A stretch of 64,000 nt of DNA, from assembly GCF_002161445.1 (NCBI RefSeq), contig NZ_NFHT01000002.1, positions 62,001-126,000 on the forward strand. The letters run 5' to 3'. This DNA comes from Alistipes sp. An66 (GTDB lineage: Bacteria; Bacteroidota; Bacteroidia; Bacteroidales; Rikenellaceae). Each line of letters starts with the position of its first letter. Within the stretch, counting starts at the first letter, position 1. Shown one piece after another: positions 17,843 to 41,549 of this stretch. The notes under the pieces are model-generated. The model made no database searches, had not been told where the DNA came from, and saw only the letters and a program-made list of their open reading frames with translations. A program made the translations under genes and the position numbers.

Positions 17843-18376
17843 TCAGAGCGTTTCCAGTTCCGCCTTCAACTCCCGGAGGGCCAGGACGATATGGTTGTTC
17901 ACCGTATTGATGCTCAAATTGAGGTGACGGGCGATCTCGCTGTTGGAATACCCCAGATAACGGCTCATCCGGAAAATCCGCTGCCGTTGAGGAGGCATGC
18001 GGTCGATGACCAGTTCGATCATCATCGCCAGATTCTCGGCATTGATCTGCTCGTCGATGCTGAACATCGTCCGGGCTTTCGCACTCTTCCGCTCATACTG
18101 CATCACGATCTTCTGATGCTCGTAGATGTCGAAGATCGCATTGCGCGCCGCCCGGAAAAGATAGCGGTCCAAAGATTCCACTTTCGGAATGATCTCCCGG
18201 TTCTCCCACAAACGCATGAAGACATTGTGCACGACATCGTCCGTAAGCAGATTGTCGTGCAACAACTTGCTCACAAAACAACGCATCTTCGGAGCAAACT
18301 CCTTGTAGATCTGCGCAAAAGCCTCGGTGTCTGCATCCTGTCCGGGGGAGGGTACGAGCCGTATTTTCTTCTGCAT
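17843..18376 (-). CDS. ECF-type RNA polymerase sigma factor (PUL 2 regulator)
   Basis: Extracytoplasmic-function sigma factor, 177 aa from the ATG at 18376. Sigma region 2 is at about 18-85 (DDVVHNVFMRLWENR, YLFRAARNAIFDIYEHQ). Region 4 is at about 115-172 (MPPQRQRIFRMSRYLGYSNSEIA, then a helix-turn-helix in LNLSINTVNNHI). An upstream in-frame ATG at 18388 exists, but a perfect -7 box at 18394-18401 would put the transcript start at about 18387, which excludes it. It diverges from fecR, whose product should hold it inactive; most Bacteroidetes pairs are co-directional. Its predicted target is the susC series to its right. Confidence 0.92.
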   Translation of the reverse strand: MQKKIRLVPSPGQDADTEAFAQIYKEFAPKMRCFVSKLLHDNLLTDDVVHNVFMRLWENREIIPKVESLDRYLFRAARNAIFDIYEHQKIVMQYERKSAKARTMFSIDEQINAENLAMMIELVIDRMPPQRQRIFRMSRYLGYSNSEIARHLNLSINTVNNHIVLALRELKAELETL

Positions 18377-18393
18377 CCGGGAAGGCATTTGCA

Positions 18394-18401
18394 CAAAAAT
18401 A
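18394..18401 (-). promoter_or_regulatory. -7 box of the ECF sigma gene
   Basis: TATTTTTG on the minus strand, an exact TAnnTTTG match, lies about 18 bp before the ATG at 18376. No convincing -33 element is visible. It decides the start codon chosen for the sigma factor. Confidence 0.45.
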
Positions 18402-18499
18402 GAAAAAAAATCCACGCTCCGACGCAGAAACGAAAAATATTCGAAATTCTGCAAATCGCATTGGTGAATCCCTTCGTCTGGACCGTCTTATAATAAAAA

Positions 18500-19507
18500 A
18501 TGGCAGAAAAAATGTCCGATCAAGAGTGCATAAAGCGAATTTTGGATTCGTTCACCCGCCGCGAAACCGGCGAAGAAGCCCGTCAGAAATTCCGCCAATG
18601 GATCACCGATCCGGAGGAGCGGAAGGAGAAGGACCAGGCGCTGGAAGCGCTGTGGAACGAAACCCGGGCTGATTTCACTGCCGCCGACGAGGCGGGCTGG
18701 GAGCGGCTCGCAACGGCGATCGCCGCCCGGAAGCGCCACGTTCGGCTCCGCCTGTGGCGCCGCACGGCTCTCGGAGCCGCCGCCGTCCTGATCCTCGGAC
18801 TCTTCGTCGCCCAGCATCTGCTGCTCTCGAAGCGGATCGAACGGGCCGAACAGGACCGGACGCTCTGCTACGTCACCTCGCCGGGAAGCAAGGGCGAATT
18901 CACACTGCCCGACGGCAGTTCGGTATGGCTCAACGGCAACAGCCGGCTGACGCTCTCCGAGCAGTTCGACGGGGCCCTGCGGAGCGTGAAACTCGAAGGC
19001 GAAGGATTCTTCGACGTCACCCGGAATCCCGAACGCCCCTTCATCGTCGAGATCGGGAAACGTCGGATCGAAGTGCTCGGCACGGCCTTCGATGTGAAGA
19101 GCTACGCCCATCTCGACTATCAGGAGGTGGTGCTGGTGCGCGGATCGGTAGACATCCGCTCGGAGAACGGACAGGTCGTCCGCCTGAAACCCAACGAACG
19201 CTACGTCGCCCAGACGCAGGGCGACGAAATGACGGTCTCGATGGTCAATGCCTCGGATTACAGCCACTGGATGGATCGTCTGCTGATCTTCGACAACAAG
19301 CCCTTCGGCAACATCCTCATCAGTCTCGAACGCTGGTACAACATGGAGTTCGACATCGCCCGCAACGTTGACCTCAAAGCCCACCTCTCGTTCAACGTCA
19401 AATACGAATCCGTGGACGAGATCCTGCGGGCCATCTCGCTGATCATTCCGATCCGCTACCATATCGACTATGTGAACAACCGCGTGCACATCGCAGCCAG
19501 GAAATGA
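18500..19507 (+). CDS. FecR-family anti-sigma factor
   Basis: Inner-membrane anti-sigma/signal transducer, 335 aa. The N-terminal cytoplasmic sigma-binding part is about 1-85, a single membrane helix about 89-109, and the periplasmic FecR domain about 120-235 (LPDGSSVWLNGNSRL, LEGEGFFDV). A C-terminal DUF4974-type domain spans about 260-335 (MEFDIARNVDLKAHLSFN). The downstream SusC carries an STN domain, the usual contact for FecR, so receptor, FecR and the divergent sigma factor form a trans-envelope signalling chain. The ATG at 18512 (M5) is an alternative start. Confidence 0.94.
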   Translation: MAEKMSDQECIKRILDSFTRRETGEEARQKFRQWITDPEERKEKDQALEALWNETRADFTAADEAGWERLATAIAARKRHVRLRLWRRTALGAAAVLILGLFVAQHLLLSKRIERAEQDRTLCYVTSPGSKGEFTLPDGSSVWLNGNSRLTLSEQFDGALRSVKLEGEGFFDVTRNPERPFIVEIGKRRIEVLGTAFDVKSYAHLDYQEVVLVRGSVDIRSENGQVVRLKPNERYVAQTQGDEMTVSMVNASDYSHWMDRLLIFDNKPFGNILISLERWYNMEFDIARNVDLKAHLSFNVKYESVDEILRAISLIIPIRYHIDYVNNRVHIAARK

Positions 19508-19570
19508 CCGGCAGCCGCCGCAACGAAACAACCGACCCAACCTGAATACGAACCTTAAACACACCTGCCC

Positions 19571-19622
19571 ATGAAACAGAGCCAACCCTGACCCAAAACA
19601 AACGGGCTCCCGAAAGAGCCCG
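19571..19622 (+). promoter_or_regulatory. Leader-like mini-ORF and hairpin before PUL 2 susC
   Basis: In the 191-bp gap between fecR and susC, a six-codon frame (ATG at 19571, stop TGA at 19589-19591, peptide MKQSQP) precedes a 7-bp hairpin, CGGGCTC (19603-19609) paired with GAGCCCG (19616-19622). No strong T run follows. It may be a weak terminator, an attenuator or chance. No consensus promoter is obvious before susC, which would fit use of the ECF sigma factor. Confidence 0.35.
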
Positions 19623-19698
19623 CTTGCGACTTTTCAAAGCCTTTTTGCGTAATGTCCGGCCAGATATTACCGCTAACTTCAAAAAATCTTTCAAATTT

Positions 19699-22600
19699 AT
19701 GGATAAAATTCGAAAAATTCAGGGTTTTATCAAAAAATGTGTCCCTGAATGCGGAATGATTGCCCTGACGGCGGTATTCCTGCTCTGCTCTCTGACCCTT
19801 TTCGCGCAGGATTCGAACAAAACGATCAAGATCGACGTCAAGAATGTCAGCGTCAAAGAGTTCCTGACCCGGATCGAGACCCAAAGCGACTATTCGTTCA
19901 TATATAAGGATGCCGACATCGACGCCTCGAAGGTCGTGACCCTCCAAGCCACCGGCACCGTCGAACAACTCGTCCGGCAGGTTCTTCCGGATTTCGCCAT
20001 GCGGATCGAGAACCGCATGATCATCCTCACCCGCAACACGGCGTCGTCCGACGTCGCCGCAGAGAAGGGCCGGATGCGGCAGATCAAGGGCGTCGTGGCC
20101 AGCGTCAACGGCGAAGCCATCGTCGGCGCCACAATCATGGTGAAAGGCAACAACTCGCTCGGAACCGTTACGGGCGAAGGCGGACGCTTCACGCTGTCGG
20201 TACCTCCCGGGACGACACTCGTCGCCTCGTTCATCGGCTACCAGACCGAAGAGGTCCCCGTCGGCACGCGCACGAACGTCGAGATCCGCATGGCCGAGGA
20301 TACGAAAGCCATCGACGAGGTGGTCGTGATGGGTTACGGCAGCCAGCGCAAGGTGACCCTGACCGGTTCGGTGGCCACGACCTCCGGCGAGTCGCTCGTC
20401 AAGAGTTCGTCGGTCAACCTCTCGCAGGGCCTCGCAGGACGTATCTCCGGCGTCATCGTCAACAACCGCTCGGGTGAGCCCGGACGCGACGACGCCGTGA
20501 TGTACATCCGCGGCCGCAGCACGCTCGGCGACAACTCGCCGCTGATCATCATCGACGGAATCGCAGGCCGCGGCGACGAGTTCAGCCGTCTGTCCGGCGA
20601 CGAGATCGAGAGCGTCACGGTTCTGAAAGACGCCTCGGCCGCCATCTACGGTTCGCGCTCGGCCAACGGCGTCATCCTCGTAACGACCAAGCGCGGGCAG
20701 ATGAACACCGCCCCGCGGATCACCTTCAACTACGACCTCGGTCTGCAACAGCCCACACGGCTCGTCGAAATGGCCGACGCCGTGCTCTATGCCGAATCCT
20801 ACAACGCCTCGAAGGCCATCGACGGAGGAGCCCCGATGTACACGCCCGAACAGATCCAGAAATACCGCGACGGTTCGGATCCCGTGCTCTACCCCAACAC
20901 CGACTGGTTCGACACCATCATCAAGACCCTCTCGGCACAGCACAAATACGGCGTGTCGGTGAGCGGCGGCACCCAGCGGCTGGGCTACTTCGTACAGGTC
21001 AACGGCCAGTACCAGGACGGTATCTACGAGAAGAGCGCCACGGAATACAAGCAGTACAGCGTCCGCTCGAACCTCGACATCCAGGTAACCAACAGCCTCA
21101 AAGTGGGCTTCGACCTCTCGGCCCGCGAGCAGCACAAGAACTACTCGGCCTTTCCGAGCGACGACTACGGAATCTTCTACATCGCCACGCGCATGAAGCC
21201 CACCAGCGGCGCCTATTACCCCAACGGCATGCTGCGCGGCGGCACCAACCCCGCCGTGCTGGTGCAGGACCTGACGGGCTACGACCGCACGAAGATCAAC
21301 ACCCTGAACTCGACCTTCACGGCCGAGTGGGACCTGGGGTGGCTCACCAAGGGGCTGTCGGTGAAGGGCAACCTCGCCTACGACGTCGTGTCGAACTTCC
21401 GCAAGAACTGGCAGCAGCCCTGGGAGTACTACTCCTACGACGAGGTGACCCAGCAGTATGAGAAGCATACGAGCTCCTACTGGACCACGCCCACGCTGCG
21501 CGAATACCAGACCCGGACCTCGAACCTCACGCTCAACGCCACGATCAACTACAACCGGGAGTTCAACGGCCACAACGTCGACGTCATGCTCGGCTTCGAG
21601 CAGAGCCAGTACCGCAAGGACTATCTCGCGGCTTCGCGGCTCAAATACGGCTCGGACGCCCTCGACGAACTTTTCGCCGGCGATGCCGACAAGAACTATT
21701 TCGACAACGACGGCTATGCCGCCGAGACGGCCCGCCGAAGCTACTTCGGACGATTCAGCTACGACTACCGGAGCAAATATCTGTTGCAGGTGATCATGCG
21801 TTACGACGGGTCGGAGAACTTCCCGAAGGACAACCGCTGGGGCTTCTTCCCCGGCGTGTCGGCCGGCTGGCGCATCTCCGAGGAGCCGTTCGTCAAGGAC
21901 AACCTCCTGTGGCTGACCAACCTCAAACTCCGCCTCTCCTACGGCGAGCAGGGTAACGACCAGATCGACGCCTTCCAGTACGTCACGACCTACGCCTACT
22001 CGGACTCGACGATCTACAAGACCAAGTACGACGACAAGGATGTCAACTTCATCATCCCGGGCACCACGCCCAACCCGTTCGTGACGTGGGAGGTCGCCAA
22101 GACCTGGAACCTCGGTCTCGACGGCGAGATCAAGGGCGGACTGCTCTCCTGGGAGCTGGAATACTTCCACACGCGGCGTGAGAATATCCTCTGCACGCGC
22201 AACGCCTCGATCCCCAACTATTCGGGACTGACCTCGCTGCCCGACGAGAACATCGGCATCGTCCAGAACAGCGGCGTCGAGTTCCAGCTGGCCCACCAGG
22301 GACGCTCGGCCGACGGCAACTTCCGCTACCGCATCGCCGGCAACTTCCTCTATGCCAAGAACAAGGTGATCTACATGGACGAGGCGCCCTGGCCCGAAGG
22401 CCACGACTACATGAAACTCGAAGGCCACCCGATGGGCTCGGGACTCTACTACCAGGTCATCGGCATCAACAAGACCGAGGAGGATCTGATGAAATACCCG
22501 CAGATGGCCGGAGCCACGCTCGGCGACTTCATCTATGCCGACCTCGACGGCGACGGCGAGATCACGAACCTCGACCGCAAGCGCTGCGACCTGACCACCG

Positions 22601-23067
22601 TGCCGCAGATCGTCTACGGCCTGAACTTCTCGGCCACCTACAAGAACTGGGACTTCATGGCGCTGTTCCAGGGTCAGGCCCGCGCCCGCTACTACTACGC
22701 TCCGTTGAAGGATCACGTCTCCGGGAACGTGGAACGCGAGGCCGCCGAAAAGGCCTGGACGCTCGACAACCGCGACTCGAACTACCCGCGCATGGGATCG
22801 AGCGTATCGAGCGCCAGCATCAACCGCAGTTCGTTCTACTACAAGAATGCCGCCTTCCTGCGCCTGAAAAACCTCGAAATCGGCTACACCTTCCCGCAAC
22901 GCTTCTTCGGCAAGTCGGGCATCAAGGGGCTGCGGCTCTATGTCGGCGGTTACAACCTCTTCACGATCGACCAGCTGAAAACCGTCGACCCCGAAACCAG
23001 CGACGAGGAGCTGCAAACCTATCCGCAGATGCGCATCTACAATGCAGGTGTTAAAATCATGTTCTAA
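19699..23067 (+). CDS. SusC-family TonB-dependent receptor with STN domain (PUL 2)
   Basis: Outer-membrane TonB-dependent importer, 1122 aa from the ATG at 19699, which is followed by a normal signal sequence (cleavage near LTLFAQ). In order: an STN signalling domain at about 42-112, a carboxypeptidase-regulatory-like domain at about 128-200, the conserved IDEVVVMGYGS at 205-215, a plug (AAIYGSRSANGVILVTTK), and a beta-barrel ending in AGVKIMF. The STN domain marks receptors that signal through FecR, matching the upstream gene. It is the first gene of a tightly spaced plus-strand series that runs to 41549. Aromatic-rich loops suggest a glycan or glycopeptide ligand, but specificity is not readable. 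Confidence 0.96.
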   Translation: MDKIRKIQGFIKKCVPECGMIALTAVFLLCSLTLFAQDSNKTIKIDVKNVSVKEFLTRIETQSDYSFIYKDADIDASKVVTLQATGTVEQLVRQVLPDFAMRIENRMIILTRNTASSDVAAEKGRMRQIKGVVASVNGEAIVGATIMVKGNNSLGTVTGEGGRFTLSVPPGTTLVASFIGYQTEEVPVGTRTNVEIRMAEDTKAIDEVVVMGYGSQRKVTLTGSVATTSGESLVKSSSVNLSQGLAGRISGVIVNNRSGEPGRDDAVMYIRGRSTLGDNSPLIIIDGIAGRGDEFSRLSGDEIESVTVLKDASAAIYGSRSANGVILVTTKRGQMNTAPRITFNYDLGLQQPTRLVEMADAVLYAESYNASKAIDGGAPMYTPEQIQKYRDGSDPVLYPNTDWFDTIIKTLSAQHKYGVSVSGGTQRLGYFVQVNGQYQDGIYEKSATEYKQYSVRSNLDIQVTNSLKVGFDLSAREQHKNYSAFPSDDYGIFYIATRMKPTSGAYYPNGMLRGGTNPAVLVQDLTGYDRTKINTLNSTFTAEWDLGWLTKGLSVKGNLAYDVVSNFRKNWQQPWEYYSYDEVTQQYEKHTSSYWTTPTLREYQTRTSNLTLNATINYNREFNGHNVDVMLGFEQSQYRKDYLAASRLKYGSDALDELFAGDADKNYFDNDGYAAETARRSYFGRFSYDYRSKYLLQVIMRYDGSENFPKDNRWGFFPGVSAGWRISEEPFVKDNLLWLTNLKLRLSYGEQGNDQIDAFQYVTTYAYSDSTIYKTKYDDKDVNFIIPGTTPNPFVTWEVAKTWNLGLDGEIKGGLLSWELEYFHTRRENILCTRNASIPNYSGLTSLPDENIGIVQNSGVEFQLAHQGRSADGNFRYRIAGNFLYAKNKVIYMDEAPWPEGHDYMKLEGHPMGSGLYYQVIGINKTEEDLMKYPQMAGATLGDFIYADLDGDGEITNLDRKRCDLTTVPQIVYGLNFSATYKNWDFMALFQGQARARYYYAPLKDHVSGNVEREAAEKAWTLDNRDSNYPRMGSSVSSASINRSSFYYKNAAFLRLKNLEIGYTFPQRFFGKSGIKGLRLYVGGYNLFTIDQLKTVDPETSDEELQTYPQMRIYNAGVKIMF

Positions 23068-23081
23068 AACCGACCATCCCC

Positions 23082-24962
23082 ATGAAAAAGATACTGTATA
23101 TCCTGACCGCCCTCACGCTGCTCGCGTGCAGTGACGACTTTCTGGACAAAAAGCCGTTGGACAAACTCTCCGAAGAGGATGTCTTCAACAACGACGCCCT
23201 GGCCGAGGCTTATGTCAATGCGCTGTACGTGGTTCTTCCCGACCCCTTCACCGAAGGGAACATCGGCTGCTGTTCCGACGAGGGGTTCTTCCGCTACGGC
23301 GGCACCTCGACCAACTACATCGCCCGCGGACAGATGACGCCCGACAACATCATGTACATGGAGGAGGGCGGGTCGGCCCACAACACCCGCACGACGTTCC
23401 TCAACATCTGGAACCGCGCCTATGAGTTCATCCGCAACATGAACGACTTCCTGGTGCGCATGGAGACCAACACGACGCTCTCGGAGGATGTCCGCACGCG
23501 GCTGACCGGCGAAGTCTACTTCCTGCGTGCGTGGGCCTACACGAACCTCGTGCAACGTTACGGCGGCGTGCCGATCATCAAAAAGGTCTACGGCATGAAC
23601 GACGAGTTCAACGCCACGCGCGACAAGTTCGACGACTGCGTGGATTTCATCCTCGAGGACCTCGCCGAAGCCAAAAAGTACCTTTCGGAGACCTCGGTGC
23701 TGGGACGCGTCAACAGCGACGTCTGCCTGGCGCTCGAATCGCGCATCACGCTCATTGCGGCCTCGCCGCTCTTCAACGACCCGGAGAACCCCACCGGTTC
23801 GATCTTCCGCGGACAATACAGCGCCGACAAGTGGGATCGGGCCCGGCAGGCCGCCAAGGCGATCGTGGACCGCGCCGATGTGGACGGAGCCTACGCGCTG
23901 GGAGCCACCTATGACGACTACTGGAAGAACATCAACTCCGACGAGGTGATCTGGGCGAAGTACTTCACCACCACCTCTGGCAACAAGGCCCAGTTGTTCT
24001 ACGCCCTGATCGACTACGAGGAGACGCTCAACGGATGGTCCTCGATGGAGCCCACCGAGGCGATGGTCCTCGACTACGAGATGGCCGCCACGGGCAAGAA
24101 GATCTTCGAGGAGGGTTCGGGCTACGATCCCGCGAATCCGTGGGAAGGCCGCGACCCGCGCTTCTACAAATCCATCGGACACCCCTACGGCGAGATCTGC
24201 GGATACAAGCTCGACAATGCGTTCTACTACGCCGCAGGCGTTACCGAGGCGGATTTCGCCGCCGGCAAAACCGCGCCGTCCTACGAATCGAAGGGCAAGC
24301 ACATGATCAACGAGAGCACGACGACAGGCTATGCCCTGCGCAAGTGGATCATCGAGGATGCGCCCGTCACCGAAAACGAGAACACGACGCTGATGTATCC
24401 GTGGTTCCGGCTGGCCGAGATGTACCTGAACTACGCCGAAGCGGCCTACATGTGCGGCGACGAGGAGACCTGCCGCCAGTACATCAACAAGGTCCGCGAC
24501 CGCGCCGACGTGAAGATGCCGCCCGTCACCGAATCGGGTTCGGCGCTCTTCGACCGGCTGGTCAACGAACGTCGCATCGAACTGGCCTTCGAGGCGTTCC
24601 GCTACTTCGACCTGCGCCGCTGGAAGCTGGCCCCGTTCTATGAGAACATCCCCATGGCCGGCACGCGCCTGATGGTGCTGACGCCCGACGCCGCCAAGCC
24701 CGACGAGAAGCAGAACCTGATCCGCACGGTCCGGGTTTACGACGCGTCGAAGAACGACAAGAGCTACTACACGCCGAACATGGTCTACGAGTACGAGTGG
24801 CTCGGCAAGAAATACAGGATCGACTACGGCGACTGCCTCTCGGCCTTCATGGCTCCGCAGAAGAACTTCCCCGAAAACGGAAGCCATTACCTGATGCCCA
24901 TCGGGCGCAACGAAATCACGAAGAGCCAGAATTCGATCGAGCAGAATCCCGGTTATATTTAA
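23082..24962 (+). CDS. SusD/RagB-family surface lipoprotein (PUL 2)
   Basis: Ligand-binding lid of the PUL 2 receptor, 626 aa, lipobox LLAC (C16). Typical SusD features include DDFLDKKPLDKLSEEDVF near the N-terminus, FLRAWAYTNLVQRYGGVPII, the TPR-like block RLAEMYLNYAEAAYM, NERRIELAFEAFRYFDLRRW, and a closing YLMPIGRNEI (family form LWPIP..E). It starts 14 bp after susC. Its ligand is inferred from the downstream enzymes to be a cell-wall or aminosugar-rich fragment. Confidence 0.95.
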   Translation: MKKILYILTALTLLACSDDFLDKKPLDKLSEEDVFNNDALAEAYVNALYVVLPDPFTEGNIGCCSDEGFFRYGGTSTNYIARGQMTPDNIMYMEEGGSAHNTRTTFLNIWNRAYEFIRNMNDFLVRMETNTTLSEDVRTRLTGEVYFLRAWAYTNLVQRYGGVPIIKKVYGMNDEFNATRDKFDDCVDFILEDLAEAKKYLSETSVLGRVNSDVCLALESRITLIAASPLFNDPENPTGSIFRGQYSADKWDRARQAAKAIVDRADVDGAYALGATYDDYWKNINSDEVIWAKYFTTTSGNKAQLFYALIDYEETLNGWSSMEPTEAMVLDYEMAATGKKIFEEGSGYDPANPWEGRDPRFYKSIGHPYGEICGYKLDNAFYYAAGVTEADFAAGKTAPSYESKGKHMINESTTTGYALRKWIIEDAPVTENENTTLMYPWFRLAEMYLNYAEAAYMCGDEETCRQYINKVRDRADVKMPPVTESGSALFDRLVNERRIELAFEAFRYFDLRRWKLAPFYENIPMAGTRLMVLTPDAAKPDEKQNLIRTVRVYDASKNDKSYYTPNMVYEYEWLGKKYRIDYGDCLSAFMAPQKNFPENGSHYLMPIGRNEITKSQNSIEQNPGYI

Positions 24963-25004
24963 CGGCAGGGCAAACGACTGACATTCAGCCGTCTGTCCCC
25001 GCAC

Positions 25005-25049
25005 ATTCCCGAAGCGGAGGAGTCCCGAAGACTCCTCCGCCGGGGGAAT
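25005..25049 (+). other. Strong intercistronic hairpin between susD and the enzyme genes
   Basis: GCGGAGGAGT (25014-25023) pairs perfectly with ACTCCTCCGC (25031-25040), and outer arms ATTCCC (25005-25010) and GGGAAT (25044-25049) extend it. There is no T run, so it looks like an RNA-processing or stability element that sets susCD levels apart from downstream genes rather than a full terminator. Confidence 0.55.
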
Positions 25050-25079: not shown

Positions 25080-26444
25080 ATGCGAGCCTATAACATACCG
25101 TTTTTCCGCATGCTGGCGGCATTGCTGGTCGTGCTGCTCTCCGGATGCCGGAGCGAACGGCTGACCTGCAACTACGCCTCCGCCGACATATCGACCAAAG
25201 AGGAGGAGCACGTCGTACTGGCGGGATTCGCCGCCCGGCACGGACTCTCGACCGGGATCCACCTTCCGTTGAAGACCCACTGCCTGGTGATCGCCAAAGG
25301 CACCGAAAAGGTGTGCATCGTCTCGAACGACCTGATGGAGGTCTCGCCGCGCGAAGCCGACCGCATGCGCACCGAGATCGCCAACCGCACGGGACTGCCT
25401 GTCAGCCACGTACTGCTGCACTGCATCCACACCCATTCGGCGCCGCGCATGGGCGGTGCCTCGGCCGTCGAGGGCGGCACGAACTACAACTACGCCACCC
25501 GTACGCTGCAAACCGTCATCGACTGTGCGGTCCGCACGGTGCTCGACGACGAGGGATTCCGTCCCTTCCGGCTCGAAATCGGCCGGAGTACGACCTCGAT
25601 CAACGGCAACCGCTGCGAGAAGGAGGGGCCCGTCGACCGCAGGGTCTATGTGGCCCGCTTCCTCGACGAACGGGACAATCCCATCGTCTCGATCGTCAAC
25701 CTCGCCTGCCATCCCGTCTGCATGGGCCCGGCAAGCCTGCTCGTCTCTCCCGACTACGCCGGCGTGGCGGCCCGGGAGTTGTGTGCGGACTGGGGCGGCG
25801 ACGTGATGCAGCTGACCGGCGCCAGCGGCAACATGAATCCCGTCTACGGCCCGAAGACGGTCGAATATGCCGAGGAGACCGGGCGCCTGCTGGCCGATTC
25901 GCTCAAAGGCATTCCCTTCACGCCGGTCCGCGAGCGCAACGTGCTGCGGGTGGCCGACGGAGTGGCCGAGCTTCCCTTCCGCATCGACTCCGTGACGCCC
26001 GAAGCGGTCGCAGCGCATGCCGACGAGATCGCAGCCTGGGACACCGCCGTGTCGTCTACCTGGAAGAGCGACGTAAGAAACTGGGAGCAGGAGATCCTCG
26101 CCCGGTTCGATGAGAAGGGAATCCCCAGCCGGCTGCCGTTCCGGATGACGGCCGTCAACATCGACGGCATCGTCTTCTTCTTCTCCCAGGGCGAGCCCTT
26201 CGTCGAATACCAGCAGGAGGCCCGCGATGCCTTCCCCGGGACGACGATCCTCTTCGCGGGATACACCAACGGCCAGAACTCCTACCTGCCCTCCGCCCAC
26301 GCCTTCGAGCACCGGAAGGGCTACGAATATGAGATCGACCAGATGCACGTCTACATCAAGGCGCCCTACCCGCTTTCCGACCGGATGCCGGAGTGCTACT
26401 CGCAGGCCGTCCGGGCGACCATCGAAGAGGCCCTTGTCGAATAA
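25080..26444 (+). CDS. Neutral/alkaline ceramidase-family lipoprotein (amidase-like)
   Basis: 454 aa with a lipobox (LLSGC, C23). Motifs match the N-terminal domain of neutral/alkaline non-lysosomal ceramidases: VSNDLMEVSP, HCIHTHSAPRMGG (H117, H119), NLACHPVCMG, SPDYAG and LTGASGNMNP. In that family the histidines bind zinc and the enzyme cleaves an amide. The protein lacks the C-terminal domain of true ceramidases, which are longer, and such short homologues are often in glycan loci with unknown substrates. Placed between susD and two GH20 genes, it may remove an N-acyl or peptide amide from an amino sugar. The family call is firm; the reaction is inferred. Confidence 0.8.
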   Translation: MRAYNIPFFRMLAALLVVLLSGCRSERLTCNYASADISTKEEEHVVLAGFAARHGLSTGIHLPLKTHCLVIAKGTEKVCIVSNDLMEVSPREADRMRTEIANRTGLPVSHVLLHCIHTHSAPRMGGASAVEGGTNYNYATRTLQTVIDCAVRTVLDDEGFRPFRLEIGRSTTSINGNRCEKEGPVDRRVYVARFLDERDNPIVSIVNLACHPVCMGPASLLVSPDYAGVAARELCADWGGDVMQLTGASGNMNPVYGPKTVEYAEETGRLLADSLKGIPFTPVRERNVLRVADGVAELPFRIDSVTPEAVAAHADEIAAWDTAVSSTWKSDVRNWEQEILARFDEKGIPSRLPFRMTAVNIDGIVFFFSQGEPFVEYQQEARDAFPGTTILFAGYTNGQNSYLPSAHAFEHRKGYEYEIDQMHVYIKAPYPLSDRMPECYSQAVRATIEEALVE

Positions 26445-26471
26445 ACCATTCCCATGACCCGAACAAGCACC

Positions 26472-28292
26472 ATGAAAAAACTCATCACCCTTCTGCTGGC
26501 GGGTTCGACGCTGGCTGCGGCGGCGGGCGTCCCGGCACGCTACGGGATCATCCCCGCACCCCGGAGCCTCGAACCCGCAGAAGGAGTCTTCACGCTGAAA
26601 AGCACCACGGCACTGACCGTCGAGGCCCGGGATACGCTCTTCCGGGAGGTGGCCGAGGATTTCGCCCGGCAGGTGCGCCGGACAACCGGCTACGCCATCC
26701 TGTCCGGCGCGGAACGCCCCCGCAGCCGCATCATCCTGCGGCAGGTCGACGGGCTGGGCGAAGAGGCCTACCGGCTGACGATCGCCCCGTCGGAGGTATG
26801 CGTGGAGGCCTCCGCCGCACACGGGGCCTTCTACGGCATCCAGACCCTCTGCCAGCTCCTGCCGGCCGAAATCTACGGCGACACGCGCGCCCGGGGCGTG
26901 CGCTGGCAGGCCCCCTGCTGCCGGATCGAGGACGAGCCCCGCTTCCCCTACCGCGGGATGATGCTCGACGTCGGGCGCTATTTCCTGCCCGCGGAGAGCG
27001 TCAAAAAGTTCATCGATCTGATGGCCATGCACAAGCAGAACATGTTCCACTGGCACCTGACCGAGGATCAGGGCTGGCGCATCGAGATCCGGAAGTATCC
27101 CCGGCTGACGGAGATCGGGTCGTGGCGCCGCGAGACGGCCGGCTACGCCGGGCGTGAGAAGAGCGACGGCACGCCCCACGGCGGATTCTACACGCAGGAC
27201 GACGTGCGCGAGATCGTCGAATACGCACGCCGCCGCTACGTGACCGTCATCCCCGAGATCGAGCTCCCGGGCCACTCGACGGCCGCCATCGCCGCCTATC
27301 CCGAACTGGCGTGCTTCCCCGACCGCAACTACGAGGTGGCGACGACCTGGGGCATCAAGAAGGACGTCTACTGTCCGAAGGGCTTCACGTTCCGTTTTCT
27401 CGAAGATGTCTTCACCGAACTGTTCGACCTCTTCCCGTCGCCCTACTACCACATCGGCGGCGACGAGTGCCCGAAGGAGCGCTGGAAGGAGTGTCCGCAC
27501 TGCCAGGAGCTGATGGAGATCCTCGGGCTCGACGACGAGGAGCAGTTGCAGACCTTCTTCGTGAAGCGCATCGACGGCTTCCTGCGCCAACACGGCAAGA
27601 CGGTGATCGGCTGGGACGAGATCCTCGACGGCGGGGCCGTCGAATCGACCGTCGCGCTCTCCTACCGCGGGCACGCCCCCGCGGCCCGGGCTTTGAGCCG
27701 CAACATGTACACCATCCTGGCTCCGAACCGCTGGTGCTACCTCGACTACAACCAGCAGGACATCGACGAGGGCGGACAGGGGCTGTTCCTGCCCCTGCGC
27801 AAGGTCTACGATTACTTCCCGAAGATCGACTCGATGCCCGACCGGAGCCGGAAATACATCCTCGGCCTGCAAGGCTGCGTCTGGGGCGAGTACATCCCGA
27901 CGTCCGAACGCATGGAGTACATGGCCTTCCCGCGGGCGCTGGCACTGGCCGAAGCCGGATGGTGCGACCTCCCGGACAAGGACTGGGAGTCGTTCCGCGT
28001 GCGGATGGAGAAGGGGCTCCGGCGTCTCGACGCCAAACGGGTCGGATACTGCCCGGCCTACTACAACGTTCTCTTCCTCTTCGACCGGGAGGCCCCCTAC
28101 CCGCGTGAGGTGGAGCTGGAACTCGACTATCCGGGAGCGGAGATCCGCTACACCACCGACGGTTCGGCACCCTCGCCCTCGTCGCCCCGCTACTCGGCGC
28201 CGCTCGCCGTGGAGAAGGGGACACGCATCCGCGCCTGCGGCTTCACGCCCGACGGCAAGGCCACAGGTTCCGCCGTCGAAAAAACCTTCTGA
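26472..28292 (+). CDS. GH20 beta-N-acetylhexosaminidase (PUL 2, first copy)
   Basis: Secreted exo-hexosaminidase, 606 aa from the ATG at 26472; an in-frame ATG at 26454 would spoil the signal peptide. GH20b-like domain about 24-150; TIM barrel about 155-510, catalytic D331-E332 in YYHIGGDECPKERW; C-terminal chitobiase-like segment (RYTTDGSAPSPSSP). The signal peptide ends near LAAAAGV with no lipobox, so it is probably a soluble periplasmic enzyme. It is a clear paralogue of the next gene, which starts 3 bp after this stop. Both share HIGGDECPK and WHLTEDQGWRIEI, which suggests tandem duplication followed by a split into soluble and lipidated forms. Confidence 0.94.
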   Translation: MKKLITLLLAGSTLAAAAGVPARYGIIPAPRSLEPAEGVFTLKSTTALTVEARDTLFREVAEDFARQVRRTTGYAILSGAERPRSRIILRQVDGLGEEAYRLTIAPSEVCVEASAAHGAFYGIQTLCQLLPAEIYGDTRARGVRWQAPCCRIEDEPRFPYRGMMLDVGRYFLPAESVKKFIDLMAMHKQNMFHWHLTEDQGWRIEIRKYPRLTEIGSWRRETAGYAGREKSDGTPHGGFYTQDDVREIVEYARRRYVTVIPEIELPGHSTAAIAAYPELACFPDRNYEVATTWGIKKDVYCPKGFTFRFLEDVFTELFDLFPSPYYHIGGDECPKERWKECPHCQELMEILGLDDEEQLQTFFVKRIDGFLRQHGKTVIGWDEILDGGAVESTVALSYRGHAPAARALSRNMYTILAPNRWCYLDYNQQDIDEGGQGLFLPLRKVYDYFPKIDSMPDRSRKYILGLQGCVWGEYIPTSERMEYMAFPRALALAEAGWCDLPDKDWESFRVRMEKGLRRLDAKRVGYCPAYYNVLFLFDREAPYPREVELELDYPGAEIRYTTDGSAPSPSSPRYSAPLAVEKGTRIRACGFTPDGKATGSAVEKTF

Positions 28293-28295: not shown

Positions 28296-30140
28296 ATGAA
28301 AAACTTCGCAACACTTCCGATAACCGCCCTGCTGCTGACCCTGCTGACGGCCTGCTCCGCCCCGGAGCCGGACAACGGCGAGATCCGCATCATCCCCCGG
28401 CCCCGGCACGTCGAGCGCTACGAGGGGCGGCTCACCCTGACGGAGCAGTGCCCGATCGTCATCGACACGGCCGACAGCGACCTGCTCCGTATCGCGGGGT
28501 TCCTCAACGAACGCCTGCGCACGGCCGCGGGATTCGAACTGCCCGTCACGGCCGCGGACGACCGGGCTGCCGTCCGCTTCGTCCCGGTCGACGGGATGAA
28601 GTCCGAGGCCTACCTGCTGCAATCCGGACCCCGGGGCGTCCGGATCGAGTACTCCGATCCGGCCGGGGCCTTCTATGCGGTCCAGACGCTGCTGCAAATG
28701 CTCCCGCCGGCGATCTATGCCGACACCCGGCAGCGCGGCACCGAATGGACGATCCCCTATGCGCGGATCGAGGACGAACCCCGCTTCGCCTACCGCGGCA
28801 TGCACCTCGACGTGTGCAGCCACTTCTTCGGCACGGAGTACCTGAAACGCTACCTCGACCTGATGGCCATGCACAAGATCAACCGCTTCCACTGGCACCT
28901 GACCGAGGACCAGGGCTGGCGCATCGAGATCAAGCGCTACCCGCTGCTCACCGAGAAGGGATCCGTGCGCCGGGAGACGGTGATCGGCTCCTGCTTCTCG
29001 GGGTTCTACGACGGAAAGCCCTACGGCGGCTACTACACGCAGGAGGAGATCCGCGAGATCGTCCGCTATGCGGCCGAACGCTACATCACGGTGATTCCCG
29101 AGATCGAGATGCCGGGGCATGCGCTGGCGGCGATCTCCTGCTATCCCGAACTCTCGTGCGGATTGGAGGAGCACTACGAGCCCGCCACCAAATGGGGCGT
29201 CTTCCGGCAGGTCTACTGCCCGAAGGAGGAGACCTTCCGGTTCCTGGAAAACGTCCTGGACGAAGTCTTCGAACTCTTCCCCTCGCCGGTCATCCACATC
29301 GGCGGCGACGAGTGTCCGAAACAGAGCTGGAAGCAGTGCCCGCACTGCCAGGGGCTGATCCGCCGCATGGGGTTGAAGGACGAATTCGAGTTGCAGAGCT
29401 ACTTCATCCGCCGCATGGAGCGTTTCGTCAACTCGCGCGGACGGGAGATCATCGGCTGGGACGAGATCCTGCAAGGCGGTCTGGCCCCCAACGCCAAGGT
29501 CATGTCCTGGCTCGGCGAGGAGGGCGGCATCGAGGCCGCACGGCAGGGGCACGAAGCTGTCATGGCACCCCACTCGCGCTACTACCTCGACTACTATCAG
29601 GCCGACCCCGACACGGAGGCGATCTGCATGGGGCACCTGGTCCCGCTGCGCACGATGTACGACTACAACCCCGTTCCGGAGGTGCTGACCGACGACGAGA
29701 AACGCTTCATCATCGGCGTCGAGGGGTGCGTCTGGACCGAGTACATGCCCGACGCCGCACGGGTCGAATACATGGCGTGGCCCCGCATGACGGCCATCGC
29801 CGAGACGGCATGGAGCCCCGCGGCAAAGGACTGGGAGGGGTTCACCCGACGGCTGGAATACCACTTCGGACGGCTGGACGCCCTGCACGTCGGCTACTGC
29901 CGGGCCTTCTACGACCCGCTCATCCAGCTGCACAAGGACAGCGCCTACACGCGCATCGCCACCATCGAGGTCGACGCCCCCGACGCCGAGATCCGCTACA
30001 CGCTCGACGGCTCCGAGCCGACGGCCGCCTCGACGCGCTACACGCAGCCCTTCGTCGTCAACCGCTCGCAGCGGATCCGCGCCGCGGCCTTCCGCGACGG
30101 GAAGCCGATCGGAGCGACAACCTCCAAACAAATGAACTGA
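28296..30140 (+). CDS. GH20 beta-N-acetylhexosaminidase lipoprotein (PUL 2, second copy)
   Basis: 614 aa with a lipobox (LTAC, C20), so it is membrane-anchored. GH20b-like domain about 30-155; TIM barrel about 160-520, catalytic D338-E339 in VIHIGGDECPKQSW; chitobiase-like C-terminal domain (YTLDGSEPTAAS). It follows its paralogue after 3 bp. In a cell-wall reading of the locus it would release GlcNAc from GlcNAc-(N-acetylhexosaminuronic acid) or GlcNAc-MurNAc units, the job done by GH3 NagZ elsewhere. No GH3 gene is present here. Confidence 0.94.
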   Translation: MKNFATLPITALLLTLLTACSAPEPDNGEIRIIPRPRHVERYEGRLTLTEQCPIVIDTADSDLLRIAGFLNERLRTAAGFELPVTAADDRAAVRFVPVDGMKSEAYLLQSGPRGVRIEYSDPAGAFYAVQTLLQMLPPAIYADTRQRGTEWTIPYARIEDEPRFAYRGMHLDVCSHFFGTEYLKRYLDLMAMHKINRFHWHLTEDQGWRIEIKRYPLLTEKGSVRRETVIGSCFSGFYDGKPYGGYYTQEEIREIVRYAAERYITVIPEIEMPGHALAAISCYPELSCGLEEHYEPATKWGVFRQVYCPKEETFRFLENVLDEVFELFPSPVIHIGGDECPKQSWKQCPHCQGLIRRMGLKDEFELQSYFIRRMERFVNSRGREIIGWDEILQGGLAPNAKVMSWLGEEGGIEAARQGHEAVMAPHSRYYLDYYQADPDTEAICMGHLVPLRTMYDYNPVPEVLTDDEKRFIIGVEGCVWTEYMPDAARVEYMAWPRMTAIAETAWSPAAKDWEGFTRRLEYHFGRLDALHVGYCRAFYDPLIQLHKDSAYTRIATIEVDAPDAEIRYTLDGSEPTAASTRYTQPFVVNRSQRIRAAAFRDGKPIGATTSKQMN

Positions 30141-34077: not shown

Positions 34078-34090
34078 AATTCCGAACACC

Positions 34091-35428: not shown

Positions 35429-35443
35429 ATCCGCACCGAAACC

Positions 35444-36292: not shown

Positions 36293-36307
36293 AACACGTC
36301 AAAAACC

Positions 36308-37507
36308 ATGACTCGAAAAGACAACTACCTGCTGCCGCTGGCCTTCATCGGGCTGATGTTCTTCACCGTGGGGTTCGCGCTGGGCATCAACAGCTATCTG
36401 GTGCCGCTGTTGCAAGCGACGCTCGACGTCTCGTCGGGCGAATCGTACCTGATCCTCGCGGCGACCTTCTCGGCCTTCCTGATTTTCAGCTACCCCACGG
36501 CGCAGATCATCCGCCGGATCGGATACCGCCGGACCATGGCGCTCTCGTTCGTGATCTTCGCCGCAGGGTTCCTGCTCTTCGTGCCGTCGGCCCGGACGGA
36601 GAGCCTGGGGCTGTTCCTGCTGGCCTCGTTCATCTGCGGCGTGGGCAACACCGTCCTGCAAGCGGCCATCAACCCCTACATCACCATTCTGGGACCCATC
36701 GAGAGCGCCGCGCGGCGCATCAGCATCATGGGCATCTGCAACAAGCTGGCGTGGCCCGTGGCGCCGATCTTCCTGGCGGCCGTCATCGGCAAGGAGGTCA
36801 GCCAGGCCGTGCTGACGGACATCGACCTGCCGTTCTACATCATCGTGGGCATCTTCCTTCTGCTGGGCGTGCTGATGCTCTTCGCACCGTTGGAGGAGAT
36901 CAAGGCCACGGGCGAGGACGAGGCCGAAGCCGCCGACTGCCCCTATGCGACGGGGAAAAGCTCCATCCGACAGTTTCCCCACCTCATTCTGGGCGCCATC
37001 GCCCTGTTCCTCTACGTCGGGGTCGAGACCCTGGCGCTGGCCACCACGGTGGACTACGCCGCCAGCCTCGGACTCCCCGACCCGCAGGACTACGCCGTCT
37101 GGCCCAGCATCGGGCTCGTCGTCGGATACGTGGCCGGCATCCTGCTGATCCCGAAGCGGCTCGATCAGGCCGCGGCGTTGAAAATCTGCTGCTGGACGGG
37201 CGTGATCGGCACCCTGCTGATCGTCTTCACGCCGGCGGAGATCTCCGTATGGTCGGTGTCGCTCATCGCGCTGGCCTGCTCGCTGATCTGGCCGGCGATC
37301 TGGCCGCTGGCCATGGCCGACCTGGGGCGCTTCACCAAGACGGGAGCTTCGCTGCTCGTGGCCTCGATCGTCGGCGGGGCAGTTATTCCGCTGCTCTTCG
37401 GGTTCCTCAAGGACGCCGTCGGCAACCAGCAGGCCTACTGGATCTGCCTGCCCTGTTACCTTTTCATGTTGTACTATGCCTGCTACGGCTGCAAAATCCG
37501 TCGTTGA
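36308..37507 (+). CDS. MFS sugar transporter (FucP/GluP-like), probable amino-sugar importer
   Basis: 399 aa with about twelve hydrophobic helices and no signal peptide, an inner-membrane proton symporter. Family features include GINSYLVPLLQATLDVS in the first helix pair, FICGVGNTVLQAAINPYITI, and the second-half GAVIPLLFGFLKDAVG. It starts 15 bp after the kinase. By position it corresponds to MurT of Tannerella. The likely cargo is MurNAc, GlcNAc or another wall amino sugar. Confidence 0.85.
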   Translation: MTRKDNYLLPLAFIGLMFFTVGFALGINSYLVPLLQATLDVSSGESYLILAATFSAFLIFSYPTAQIIRRIGYRRTMALSFVIFAAGFLLFVPSARTESLGLFLLASFICGVGNTVLQAAINPYITILGPIESAARRISIMGICNKLAWPVAPIFLAAVIGKEVSQAVLTDIDLPFYIIVGIFLLLGVLMLFAPLEEIKATGEDEAEAADCPYATGKSSIRQFPHLILGAIALFLYVGVETLALATTVDYAASLGLPDPQDYAVWPSIGLVVGYVAGILLIPKRLDQAAALKICCWTGVIGTLLIVFTPAEISVWSVSLIALACSLIWPAIWPLAMADLGRFTKTGASLLVASIVGGAVIPLLFGFLKDAVGNQQAYWICLPCYLFMLYYACYGCKIRR

Positions 37508-37510
37508 GCG

Positions 37511-38776: not shown

Positions 38777-40110
38777 ACTTCACCCCCTGGACCCTGCTGA
38801 TCGACGTGGGCATCATCTCCGCGCTGCTGCTGCTCGGCAAGCTGGCGCGGGCCCGCCTGCCCTTCATCCAACGGCTCTTCATTCCTCCGAGTCTGCTGGC
38901 GGGTTTCTGCGCCCTGCTGCTGGGCCCCGAGGTGCTGGGGTGGCTGCCCCTCTCGAACAACACGGGGACCTATGCCGGAATCCTCATCGCACTGGTCTTC
39001 GGGGCCCTGCCCCTGACCTCGACGCGCCAGACCCGAAAGGGCGGCGACCACATCGGACGCATGTGGGCCTACGCCCAGGCGGGGCTCCTACTGCAATGGG
39101 CCCTGGGCGGCTTCGCAGGGCTTCTGCTGCTGGGGATGATCTGGCCGCTGAACGACGCCTTCGGACTCGCCATGCCGAGCGGTTTCTGCGGCGGCCACGG
39201 CACCGCGGCGGCCATCGGCGAGGCCTTCGCCAAATACGGCATGGAGGAGATGCTGTCGCTGGCCATGACAGCGGCGACGGTCGGGATCATCGCGGCGGTC
39301 GTCATCGGGCTGTGGCTCATCAAATGGGGCTCGGCACACGGCCAGACGACCTTCCTGAACAAGTTCACGGACCTGCCCGAAGAGCTGCAAACCGGCATCG
39401 TCCCGAAGGAGAAGCGCAGCAGCATGGGCGAAGCGTCGTTTTCGGCCATCTCGCTCGACTCGATGACCTTCAACTTCGGGGTCATCGCCCTGATCGCGCT
39501 CTGCGGCTACGGGATCAGCCAGCTCATCGCCCGCTTCTACCCGGCGCTGATGCTGCCCGTATTCAGCTGCGCCTTCATCGTGGGGCTGCTCCTGCGTCGG
39601 GCCTTCGACCTCACGCATACCCGCCAATACCTCTCGCCGAAGGTGATCGGGCACCTCTGCGGCGCCTTCACGGACTATCTGGTGGCCTTCGGCGTCGCGT
39701 CGATCAAACTCACCGTCGTGGCCCGCTACGTCGTGCCGCTCGCGCTGCTGCTCGGCATCGGGCTGCTCTGCACACTGGGCTACGTGCTCTGGATCGGGCG
39801 GCGCATCCACCGCACCTGCTGGTTCGAGAAGGCGATCTTCACCTGGGGATGGTTCACCGGGACGATGGCCATGAGCATCGCCCTGCTGCGCATCGTCGAC
39901 CCCGACACGCGCAGCCGCTGTCTGGACGACTACGCCTACGCCTATATCTATATCGCACCGGTCGAAATCGCCCTCGTGACCTTCGCTCCCGTGGCCTTTG
40001 CGAACGGCTTCGGCGGCGGCTTCCTGACCCTTTGTGCCGCAGCCGGCGGAGCGATCCTGCTCTTCGCCGTGCTGAAAGGCTGGCTCACGAAAAAAACGGC
40101 GAAACCATGA
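38773..40110 (+). CDS. gltS: Sodium/glutamate symporter, GltS type
   Basis: Inner-membrane Na+-coupled glutamate transporter, 445 aa, two inverted repeats of membrane helices. Family signatures include PSLLAGFCALLLGPEVLGWL in the first half, SGFCGGHGTAAAIGEAF as the first re-entrant loop, and ANGFGGGFLTLCAAAGG as the second, both glycine-rich as expected. ATGA overlaps join it to the genes on both sides, so it is co-translated with the two hydrolases. A glutamate importer coupled to two amidohydrolases implies that glutamate is a major product of the substrate peptide. Confidence 0.88.
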   Translation: MNFTPWTLLIDVGIISALLLLGKLARARLPFIQRLFIPPSLLAGFCALLLGPEVLGWLPLSNNTGTYAGILIALVFGALPLTSTRQTRKGGDHIGRMWAYAQAGLLLQWALGGFAGLLLLGMIWPLNDAFGLAMPSGFCGGHGTAAAIGEAFAKYGMEEMLSLAMTAATVGIIAAVVIGLWLIKWGSAHGQTTFLNKFTDLPEELQTGIVPKEKRSSMGEASFSAISLDSMTFNFGVIALIALCGYGISQLIARFYPALMLPVFSCAFIVGLLLRRAFDLTHTRQYLSPKVIGHLCGAFTDYLVAFGVASIKLTVVARYVVPLALLLGIGLLCTLGYVLWIGRRIHRTCWFEKAIFTWGWFTGTMAMSIALLRIVDPDTRSRCLDDYAYAYIYIAPVEIALVTFAPVAFANGFGGGFLTLCAAAGGAILLFAVLKGWLTKKTAKP

Positions 40111-41549
40111 GAAAAACGCTCCCGATCCTGCTTCTTGCACTGCTGCTTCCGGTCGTCGCGGCGTCGGCGAAACCGCCGCGTCAGCTCCGGAAAAATGCGG
40201 GCCTGCACTACCTCGACGACCATTTTCTGCGTTACGACTCCCTGCAAAAGCAACTCCACGGACTCGCCGAAACCGGCTACCGGGAGTTCCGGAGCGCCGA
40301 ACTGCTGTGCCGCCACCTCGAACAGCACGGATTCCGCGTCGAGCGCGGCGTGGCGGGGATTCCGACGGCCTTCATCGCCGCCTTCGGCGAGGGCGGCCCG
40401 GTGATCGGCGTCATGGCCGAATACGACGCCCTGCCGGGCATGGCCCAGGATACCGTTCCCTTCCGCCGGGCGCCGGCAGGCGGCGGCGCCGGGCACGGCT
40501 GCGGCCACAACCTCCTCGGCACGGGCTCCGTGGCGGGGGCCGTCGCCGTCTCGAAGTGGCTTGCCGAAGGGCACCGCGGCACGATCCGGCTCTTCGGATG
40601 CCCGGCCGAGGAGGGCGGCGGAGGCAAGGCCTACCTGATGCGCGAAGGGTGCTTCGAGGGGCTCGACGCCATGCTCGACTGGCACCCCGACACGCGCAAC
40701 ACGGTGAACACCCAAACCGGGCTGGCCAACGTGCAGGTGCGCTTCACCTTCCACGGACGTTCGGCGCACGCCTCGGGGGCTCCCGAGCAGGGCCGTTCGG
40801 CCCTCGACGCCGTCGAGGCGTTCGACTTCATGATGAACCTCCTGCGCGAACACGTGCCGCAGACGACGCGCATCCACTACGTCATCACCGACGGCGGGCG
40901 TGCGCCGAACGTCGTACCCGACCGTGCCGAGGTGCTCTACTACCTGCGCAGTCCGCAGCGGACGGTGGTCGGCGAGCTGCTCGACCGGGCGTTGAAGGCC
41001 GCCGAAGGGGCCGCGCTCGGAACCGGCACGACTTTCGAACACGAAATCATCTCCGGGAACTACGAGCGACTGCCGAACCGGACCCTCTCGGAACTCCTCT
41101 ACCGGAATCTCGAATGCCTCGGCGGCATCCGCTACGACGCCCGCGAGCGGGCCTTCGCCGTGGAGATGCTGCGCAACTCGGGGATTACCGACACGGCGTG
41201 TCTGGCCCGCGTCTCGCGGGTCGAGCCGCCCTCCGACGAGGGGCTTGCGGCGTGGGTGTCGAGCGACGTGGGCAACGTGACGTGGGGCGTCCCGACGGGG
41301 AGTCTCCGCATCGCCTCGTTCGTCCCGGCCGGGAGCGGGCATTGCTGGCAGCAGACGGCCAGCGGCGGCACGACCATCGGTACGAAGGGAGCCATGCAGG
41401 CCGCGCGGGTGATCTGTCTCACGGCCTGCACGCTCTACACCGATCCGGCGACGCTCGCGCGGATCCGGGCCGAATTTCTCGAACGCCGGGGTCCGGATTT
41501 CCGGTTCGAGCCGCTGATGGGCGACCGCACCCCACCCCTTCCCCTTTAA
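40107..41549 (+). CDS. Secreted M20-family amidohydrolase (AbgB-like)
   Basis: 480 aa with a signal peptide (about 1-21). Metallopeptidase M20 ligands are visible: D107 in EYDALPG, H134 in GHGCGHNLLGTG, E168-E169 in PAEEGGGG and H193 in DWHPD. SSDVGNVTWGVPT and HCWQQTASGGTTIGTKG resemble the AbgB subunit that frees glutamate from p-aminobenzoyl-glutamate. Its ATG overlaps the gltS stop (ATGA). Unlike cytoplasmic AbgB it is exported, so it should release glutamate or another amine in the periplasm for the adjacent symporter. It is the last gene of PUL 2. Confidence 0.85.
   Translation: MRKTLPILLLALLLPVVAASAKPPRQLRKNAGLHYLDDHFLRYDSLQKQLHGLAETGYREFRSAELLCRHLEQHGFRVERGVAGIPTAFIAAFGEGGPVIGVMAEYDALPGMAQDTVPFRRAPAGGGAGHGCGHNLLGTGSVAGAVAVSKWLAEGHRGTIRLFGCPAEEGGGGKAYLMREGCFEGLDAMLDWHPDTRNTVNTQTGLANVQVRFTFHGRSAHASGAPEQGRSALDAVEAFDFMMNLLREHVPQTTRIHYVITDGGRAPNVVPDRAEVLYYLRSPQRTVVGELLDRALKAAEGAALGTGTTFEHEIISGNYERLPNRTLSELLYRNLECLGGIRYDARERAFAVEMLRNSGITDTACLARVSRVEPPSDEGLAAWVSSDVGNVTWGVPTGSLRIASFVPAGSGHCWQQTASGGTTIGTKGAMQAARVICLTACTLYTDPATLARIRAEFLERRGPDFRFEPLMGDRTPPLPL

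Follow-up and report, generated by a model that had tools for sequence, protein, structure and literature searches.

A Bacteroidales Polysaccharide Utilization Locus Likely Directed at Pseudomurein, with a Candidate Pseudomurein Glycosidase

Known Systems and the Alistipes Locus

Pseudomurein is set apart from bacterial murein by containing N-acetyltalosaminuronic acid and L-amino acids and by its β-1,3 and isopeptide linkages (PMC4592898). Most enzymes that cleave the glycosidic bonds of murein fail on it, and the Pei enzymes are named as specific for pseudomurein (PMC3124540). In the open-licence literature, as far as its accessible text goes, the enzymes described as attacking pseudomurein (PeiW, PeiP and PeiR) are peptide-cutting and of viral or prophage origin; its titles and abstracts yielded no pseudomurein glycosidase and no bacterial locus for feeding on pseudomurein, and neither is named in the available parts of PMC12596118 and PMC13135261. 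The subject of the present analysis is a polysaccharide utilization locus (PUL) of Alistipes sp. An66 (genome of 3.05 Mb in 53 contigs, completeness 99.9%), found at positions 17843–41549 of a stretch of 64,000 nucleotides (positions 62,001 to 126,000 of contig NZ_NFHT01000002.1) that is hereafter called the window. Its gene content suggests a Bacteroidales PUL that likely degrades and imports pseudomurein and that includes a candidate pseudomurein glycosidase.

The closest described proteins come from methanogens and their viruses. PeiW and PeiP (phages psiM100 and psiM1/M2) consist of N-terminal pseudomurein-binding repeats (PMBR) and a C-terminal transglutaminase-fold domain with a Cys-His-Asp triad, an arrangement shared by one protein of the locus, P0002. 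Surface proteins of Methanobrevibacter and Methanosphaera (adhesin-like group III) likewise carry PMBR beside a C-terminal transglutaminase, and the accessible portion of the same source lists PMBR, transglutaminase and one "putative glycosyl hydrolase domain" among the adhesin-like proteins of M. smithii and M. stadtmanae, drawing there no link to wall cutting (PMC11532034). In a survey of archaeal peptidoglycan hydrolases, two homologues only are given for 117 genomes of pseudomurein makers, so that known murein hydrolases are scarce in these archaea (PMC12352652).

On the side of sugar salvage, the nearest counterpart shares a MurQ-type etherase, a BadF-type kinase and a sugar transporter with the PUL. 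This is the N-acetylmuramic acid (MurNAc) salvage of the Tannerella forsythia type, which corresponds to murT-murK-murQ. Unlike it, the PUL also has a SusC/SusD pair, glycoside hydrolases of family 20 (GH20) and wall modules of archaeal type, and its MurQ is divergent.

Three Lipoproteins with Archaeal-Type Wall Modules

The core of the locus is formed by three consecutive lipoprotein genes on the plus strand, whose lipobox cysteines were identified by eye. The first, P0001 (31039–32988), has three modules of about 130–155 residues each (residues 136–284, 303–456 and 494–627), and P0002 (33049–34077) has one such module at residues 36–196. When a profile of 16 Bacteroidales modules was aligned by hhalign to one of 30 archaeal and viral PMBR modules, the match reached 98.4% probability (E 9.4e-15, score 90.7, 123 columns), whereas 60 column-shuffled decoys scored at most 15.3, a reversed profile 16.1 and four unrelated windows at most 12.7. 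This comparison shows homology to archaeal pseudomurein-binding modules both for the modules of P0001 and for the N-terminal part of P0002. An earlier note, made from the DNA letters of the window, had described these repeats as pseudomurein-binding-like and had proposed that a lack of similarity to PF09373 or any wall-binding family, together with induction by an unrelated glycan only, would refute its reading; the homology just described runs against the first of these conditions.

Evidence from hidden Markov models (HMMs) at the sequence level is weaker than that from profile-profile comparison. P0001 scores 24.0 bits against PF09373 (E 3.9e-5), just below the gathering cut-off of 24.9, and is thus a PMBR relative, by profile-profile homology, rather than a PF09373 member. 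An HMM built from archaeal repeats alone matches P0001 (E 2.6e-5), the metagenomic P0002 relative P0017 (2.4e-5) and a repeat lipoprotein of a rumen Bacteroidales (2e-6), with no match to P0002 itself, to which Pfam's own PMBR model also gives none, so that the P0002 module is recognized by profile-profile comparison. A PF09373 scan of the whole genome (best 13.2 bits) was set aside as too weak alone, and at an E-value limit of 10 the same model matched 11 of 14 control genomes, which is noise at that setting. Above its cut-off, PMBR was found in none of the 14 controls and in 144 of 149 sampled genomes of the archaeal phylum that includes the Methanobacteriaceae genome discussed below; scans of that phylum can therefore not serve as a negative control. 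Two loci, L011 and L069, were included when the PMBR HMM was built and match it by construction.

The remainder of P0002 is a transglutaminase-fold domain (residues 197–342; Transglut_core, PF01841, 83.9 bits) with the triad Cys264-His299-Asp314, all three residues being invariant across 14 aligned sequences. The C-terminal transglutaminase fold with a Cys-His-Asp triad, by which pseudomurein endoisopeptidases were recognized here, is thus present. Foldseek places PeiP (8z4f) first among PDB structures (E 8e-10, both domains, 321 columns including gaps), with PeiW at E 3e-5, in agreement with the Cys-His-Asp peptidase-type domain that had been proposed for comparison with these two enzymes. 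P0002 differs from PeiW and PeiP in being a bacterial lipoprotein and in missing PF12386, the Pfam Peptidase_C71 family, and its sequence is nearer to archaeal Transglut_core proteins and to a protein of Methanobacterium virus Drs3 than to PeiW; the transglutaminase HMM gives PeiW 24.9 bits versus 129.6 for Drs3. Translated searches (tblastn) of 50,697 phage records returned seven at E ≤ 1, the best being the Drs3 "pseudomurein-binding repeat protein" (E 3e-12, two records), followed by a Methanobacteriales virus (E 1e-4, two records), with the other three weaker than 0.01.

Relatives of P0002 were found at eight genomic loci, namely one in rumen Bacteroidales, five in archaea (two Methanobacteriaceae, an unclassified archaeon, a Euryarchaeota metagenome-assembled genome (MAG) and Methanopyri) and two in Riflebacteria. 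The Riflebacteria proteins (L012:9608-10507 and L015:9470-10354), one of which bears a PG_binding_1 domain, may mean that a Pei-like enzyme also exists in another bacterial lineage. Family scans matched 209 of 393 genomes of the order of the window genome and 10 of 268 in a second genome set; apart from those in the window's own genome, the matches listed extend only over the transglutaminase part and the stretch leading up to it, at no more than 52.7 bits. A search with an enlarged alignment (A4) gave 13 matches, none of them archaeal by name. The genome encodes another transglutaminase (L004), which the tree of these domains puts inside the P0002 family at the end of a very long branch; this placement is probably an artefact. 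The window itself holds a second transglutaminase-domain protein (61465–61875, minus strand; 32.8–39.5 bits), distant from P0002.

The third lipoprotein, P0003 (34091–35428), joins a lamin-tail-like domain to a GH18-like barrel that matches DUF4015 (PF13200) at 40.2 bits, over a cut-off of 27, and is the candidate pseudomurein glycosidase. The catalytic motif of GH18 enzymes is DxxDxDxE; by eye, P0003 reads GIRAIHFDYIR at that place and lacks it. Identities to Cwp19 of Clostridioides difficile, PgaB (GH153), GH18 chitinases and SleL are 8–16%, and the likeness in fold to these enzymes implies no bond specificity.

The P0003 family occurs in 108 of 120 genomes of the order of the Methanobacteriaceae genome, and the barrel alone in 132 of 149 genomes of that phylum. 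In the window genome's own order (393 genomes, up to six candidates scored per genome), the barrel scores strongly only in the window's genome, six others reaching at most 28 bits. That scan was made with the barrel alone because full-length P0003 had been swamped by its lamin-tail domain: 114 of the 393 genomes matched (up to four candidates scored per genome), and the matches listed outside the window's genome fell for the most part within the lamin-tail domain, reaching to roughly position 221 of 443. Lamin-tail-like domains akin to the P0003 N-terminus are thus common in the order, 113 other genomes having matched.

The archaeal relatives also tie the three modules together. A Methanobacteriaceae protein of 726 residues (L011:8411-10588) carries the barrel, three PMBR and a transglutaminase in series; the latter two were called by Pfam and the barrel by blastp to P0003 (E 7e-17) and by the family HMM. 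In a set of 32 archaeal barrel proteins, Pfam recognized DUF4015 in 31, PMBR in 16, Transglut_core in eight and Peptidase_C71 in three. With our own HMMs, 18 of 51 archaeal barrel open reading frames (ORFs) carry PMBR, eight of these also a transglutaminase; the 51 represent 50 distinct genes, one being counted twice, 23 are truncated where the locus ends, and the loci L076–L105 were taken as the best-scoring and are no random sample. The eight proteins thus add the barrel to the PMBR-transglutaminase pair, and the putative TIM-barrel glycosidase that the earlier note had read from the DNA has a family present in most sampled genomes of the order of the Methanobacteriaceae. While the Methanobrevibacter and Methanosphaera proteins are one long chain, the PUL version is spread over separate chains: as judged from these alignments, P0001, P0002 and P0003 are relatives of the fused archaeal modules, split over three bacterial lipoproteins.

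Among five viral barrel ORFs, two carry PMBR above the Pfam cut-off (L146:4968-6734 and L148:4938-6752; 43.5 and 45.2 bits). Both lie on IMG/VR viral contigs with integrase genes near by, and a tail gene is near the former. These two proteins are candidate glycosidase lysins of methanogen viruses; when searched against PHROGs, the viral barrel proteins received no lysin annotation.

A Second Locus and a Divergent MurQ

The combination recurs in a water-buffalo rumen Bacteroidales MAG, on contig G656:C129, where the gene order (identities to the PUL in brackets) is SusD (49%), ceramidase-like (51% and 69%), GH20 (55%), GH20 (63%), MurQ-like (75%), lamin-tail barrel (38%), repeat lipoprotein (35%), a repeat-plus-barrel fusion, a second repeat-like lipoprotein, transglutaminase (40%) and another large protein. 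The kinase, sugar transporter, C45 amidase, glutamate symporter and M20 hydrolase of the Alistipes locus had no match on either strand of this contig. A rumen Bacteroidales protein (L010:4289-7315) has two PMBR-like modules fused to the DUF4015 barrel. The rumen ceramidase-like gene (L152:1611-2957) is interrupted by one in-frame stop, an assembly error or a real break, which accounts for its two pieces of 51% and 69% identity to P0004.

MurQ opens the C3-O ether of a reducing-end amino sugar. The MurQ-like protein P0009 (30178–31002) passes the NCBIfam subfamily model PRK05441 (309.5 versus 168 bits) and misses the equivalog TIGR00274 (260.3 versus 302). It is 75% identical to the rumen-locus copy and 49% to the ordinary MurQ encoded elsewhere in the genome, and in a family scan of 120 genomes, 25 of which gave a MurQ match, none outside the window's genome exceeded 53% identity to the PUL copy. 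A motif comparison covered 12 of 14 loci (two PUL copies and ten ordinary MurQs). All ten ordinary proteins read GTSGRL, DASE and PPT(F/Y)G, whereas the PUL copies read GTGG(R/K)L, D(A/T)(I/L)E and PNTYG, P0009 itself having GTGGRL, DAIE and PNTYG; P0009 differs from the ordinary signature at the loop and beside the first glutamate. The two glutamates that we take to be catalytic are kept (DAIE and ALEERED, aligned to 4s12 and 4lzj). Among the loci sampled, the divergent paralogue is specific to the two PUL loci, and it may act on a changed substrate.

Gene Content of the Locus

All genes named in the earlier note for 17843–41549 were recovered by Pfam and NCBIfam profile scans, with some corrections to their reading. 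Two traits expected of a PUL are present: SusC and SusD lie side by side with glycan enzymes encoded in the same direction, and there is a linked regulator. The latter consists of a FecR anti-sigma factor (18500–19507, plus strand; FecR 57.9 bits, FecR_C 55.1) and a sigma factor of the extracytoplasmic function (ECF) type (Sigma70_r4_2 55.4 bits, Sigma70_r2 31.3). The sigma/FecR pair thus stands, although the sigma gene is on the minus strand (17843–18454), divergent from FecR; a plus-strand ORF considered for that role (17891–18493) has no Pfam match.

From the start of SusC (19624) to the end of the M20 gene (41549) there are 14 plus-strand genes with intergenic gaps of −4 to 117 bases. The SusC-like TonB-dependent transporter (19624–23067; Plug 55.7 bits, CarbopepD_reg_2 58.3) and SusD-like lipoprotein (23082–24962; SusD_RagB 167 bits) are followed by the ceramidase-like lipoprotein P0004, a candidate amide hydrolase (25080–26444; Ceramidase_alk 34.8 bits versus a cut-off of 32.1), and by two GH20 β-hexosaminidases (26454–28292 and 28296–30140; 368 and 408 bits in Pfam). 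Then come P0009 and the three wall-module lipoproteins, and behind them the BadF-type sugar kinase P0005 (35444–36292), likely a kinase of N-acetylglucosamine (GlcNAc) or MurNAc, and P0006, a GluP/NagP-type sugar transporter of the major facilitator superfamily (36308–37507; TIGR01272 226 bits over 202, NagP 284 under 625). The transporter is as had been proposed, while the kinase assignment is weak (BadF 17.5 bits, under the cut-off; NagK_SO3507 20 bits). The two amide hydrolases mentioned earlier are presumably P0004 and the C45/AAT Ntn-hydrolase-like amidase P0007 (37511–38776; AAT 26.6 bits over 23.2, C45_proenzyme 47 under 85). The glutamate importer beside an M20 hydrolase was found as described, as the sodium/glutamate symporter P0010 (38773–40110; Glt_symporter 65 bits) and the amidohydrolase P0008 (TIGR01891 236 bits over 154; M20 Pfam model 43.8 bits), with the start of the latter corrected to give 40107–41549. 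Matches above Pfam cut-offs comprise FecR, SusC, SusD, both GH20, the transglutaminase core, DUF4015, the symporter and M20. The GC content is 0.60–0.69 from FecR onward versus 0.58–0.66 in the neighbouring PUL, and this similarity gives no sign that the PUL core is a recent arrival.

Substrate and Proposed Working

Three points favour pseudomurein over murein. The core modules correspond to the set that methanogens themselves carry; hardly any sampled genome in the order of the window genome has the barrel; and no murein-specific lytic model (lysozyme-like, NlpC/P60 or muramoyl-amidase) was among the Pfam matches of the locus genes. We infer the substrate from the repeat homology, the PeiP fold match and the distribution and fusions of the barrel, which speak for the pseudomurein reading of the earlier note; the two GH20 enzymes and the glutamate module, also cited there, would suit either wall.

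Several observations weigh against it. P0002 has no Peptidase_C71 match and is recognized by PF01841 only; the Drs3 virus protein itself falls under the Peptidase_C71 cut-off (20.7 versus 22 bits). The barrel gave no match in the archaeal MAGs G662 (Euryarchaeota) and G663 (Methanopyri), although Methanopyri produce pseudomurein. If these two cases carry any weight, they speak against a requirement for the barrel where that polymer is concerned. We know of no role for MurQ in pseudomurein. The remaining points favour the best surviving rival, itself unlikely, in which the locus feeds on muropeptides from bacterial murein. MurNAc would then be converted to GlcNAc-6-phosphate by MurQ together with the BadF kinase, GH20 would free GlcNAc, and the archaeal-type modules would have been re-purposed for murein. 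This rival gains from the MurQ subfamily match with its conserved glutamates, from the murein-binding PG_binding_1 domain on a Riflebacteria relative of P0002, and from the report that a PMB domain attaches to bacterial spheroplasts too (PMC3124540). It is opposed by the departures of P0009 from ten ordinary MurQs, by the retention of an ordinary MurQ elsewhere in the genome, by the missing murein-specific lytic models and by a barrel family found in most sampled genomes of the order of the Methanobacteriaceae and in hardly any of the order of the window genome. The value of MurQ as a pointer to bacterial murein is weakened by the divergence of this paralogue, kept at 75% in the rumen locus, and is not removed.

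A host or dietary amino-sugar glycan, such as a mucin O-glycan or chitin, is considerably less probable still. GH20 would then be the core, with the repeat and transglutaminase lipoproteins as passengers or general adhesins. Two GH20 enzymes with a NagP/GluP-like transporter are common in mucin and chitin loci, and the neighbouring PUL has GH20 and a sulfatase, but the archaeal-type kit and the GH20 pair are kept together in a second genome and the repeats are fused to the barrel in one rumen protein. Least probable of all is a weapon, that is, surface lipoproteins that lyse competing methanogens with nutrient gain secondary: the likely lytic modules do resemble methanogen-virus proteins, but a single gene run that brings SusC/SusD and GH20 together with a kinase, transporters and amidases points to uptake and use.

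For a pseudomurein-degrading PUL, a working can be inferred, including the bonds cut, the locations and the order of steps. The divergent ECF sigma factor and FecR would turn the locus on. The surface lipoprotein P0001 would hold wall fragments through its three PMBR-like modules while P0002, like PeiP, would cut the Ala-ε-Lys cross-bridge and the P0003 barrel the glycan. The pieces would be imported by SusC/SusD, GlcNAc or N-acetylgalactosamine freed by the two GH20 enzymes, and amide bonds trimmed by the ceramidase-like, C45 and M20 hydrolases. P0009 would process a wall sugar and may be re-tooled for C3 of N-acetyltalosaminuronic acid, an idea that arises because this C3 carries GlcNAc and C6 is a carboxylate. 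Salvage of amino sugar and of glutamate would fall to the transporter P0006, the BadF kinase and the glutamate symporter.

A bolder version, on which our judgement is evenly balanced, is that gut Bacteroidales run a complete pseudomurein pathway with a front end exchanged with Methanobacteriales, that the P0003 DUF4015 clade, to which autolysin-like proteins of methanogens and lysins of viruses also belong, is the first pseudomurein-cutting glycosidase family, and that MurQ was re-tooled for the C3 linkage of N-acetyltalosaminuronic acid. If pseudomurein is indeed the substrate, gut bacteria would have the means to recycle methanogens or to prey on them, with a bearing on ruminant and human methane, and P0003 and its archaeal kin would be the first candidates for cutting the pseudomurein glycan. 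Enzymes of this type would be useful for wall chemistry, DNA extraction, methanogen transformation and methane control. The locus makes the fate of methanogen walls in the gut a testable question.

Neighbouring Genes

A second PUL precedes the locus (2359–17691), mostly on the opposite strand, and comprises a GH20 with an F5/8-like domain, an SGSH-like sulfatase, SusD, SusC and a hybrid two-component regulator; it looks like a locus for a sulfated amino-sugar glycan. The ORFs at 229–2358 and 6403–8475 have no Pfam match. Downstream of the locus, at 42178–42640, two short tandem helix-turn-helix-like ORFs have, by eye, a near-repeated sequence.

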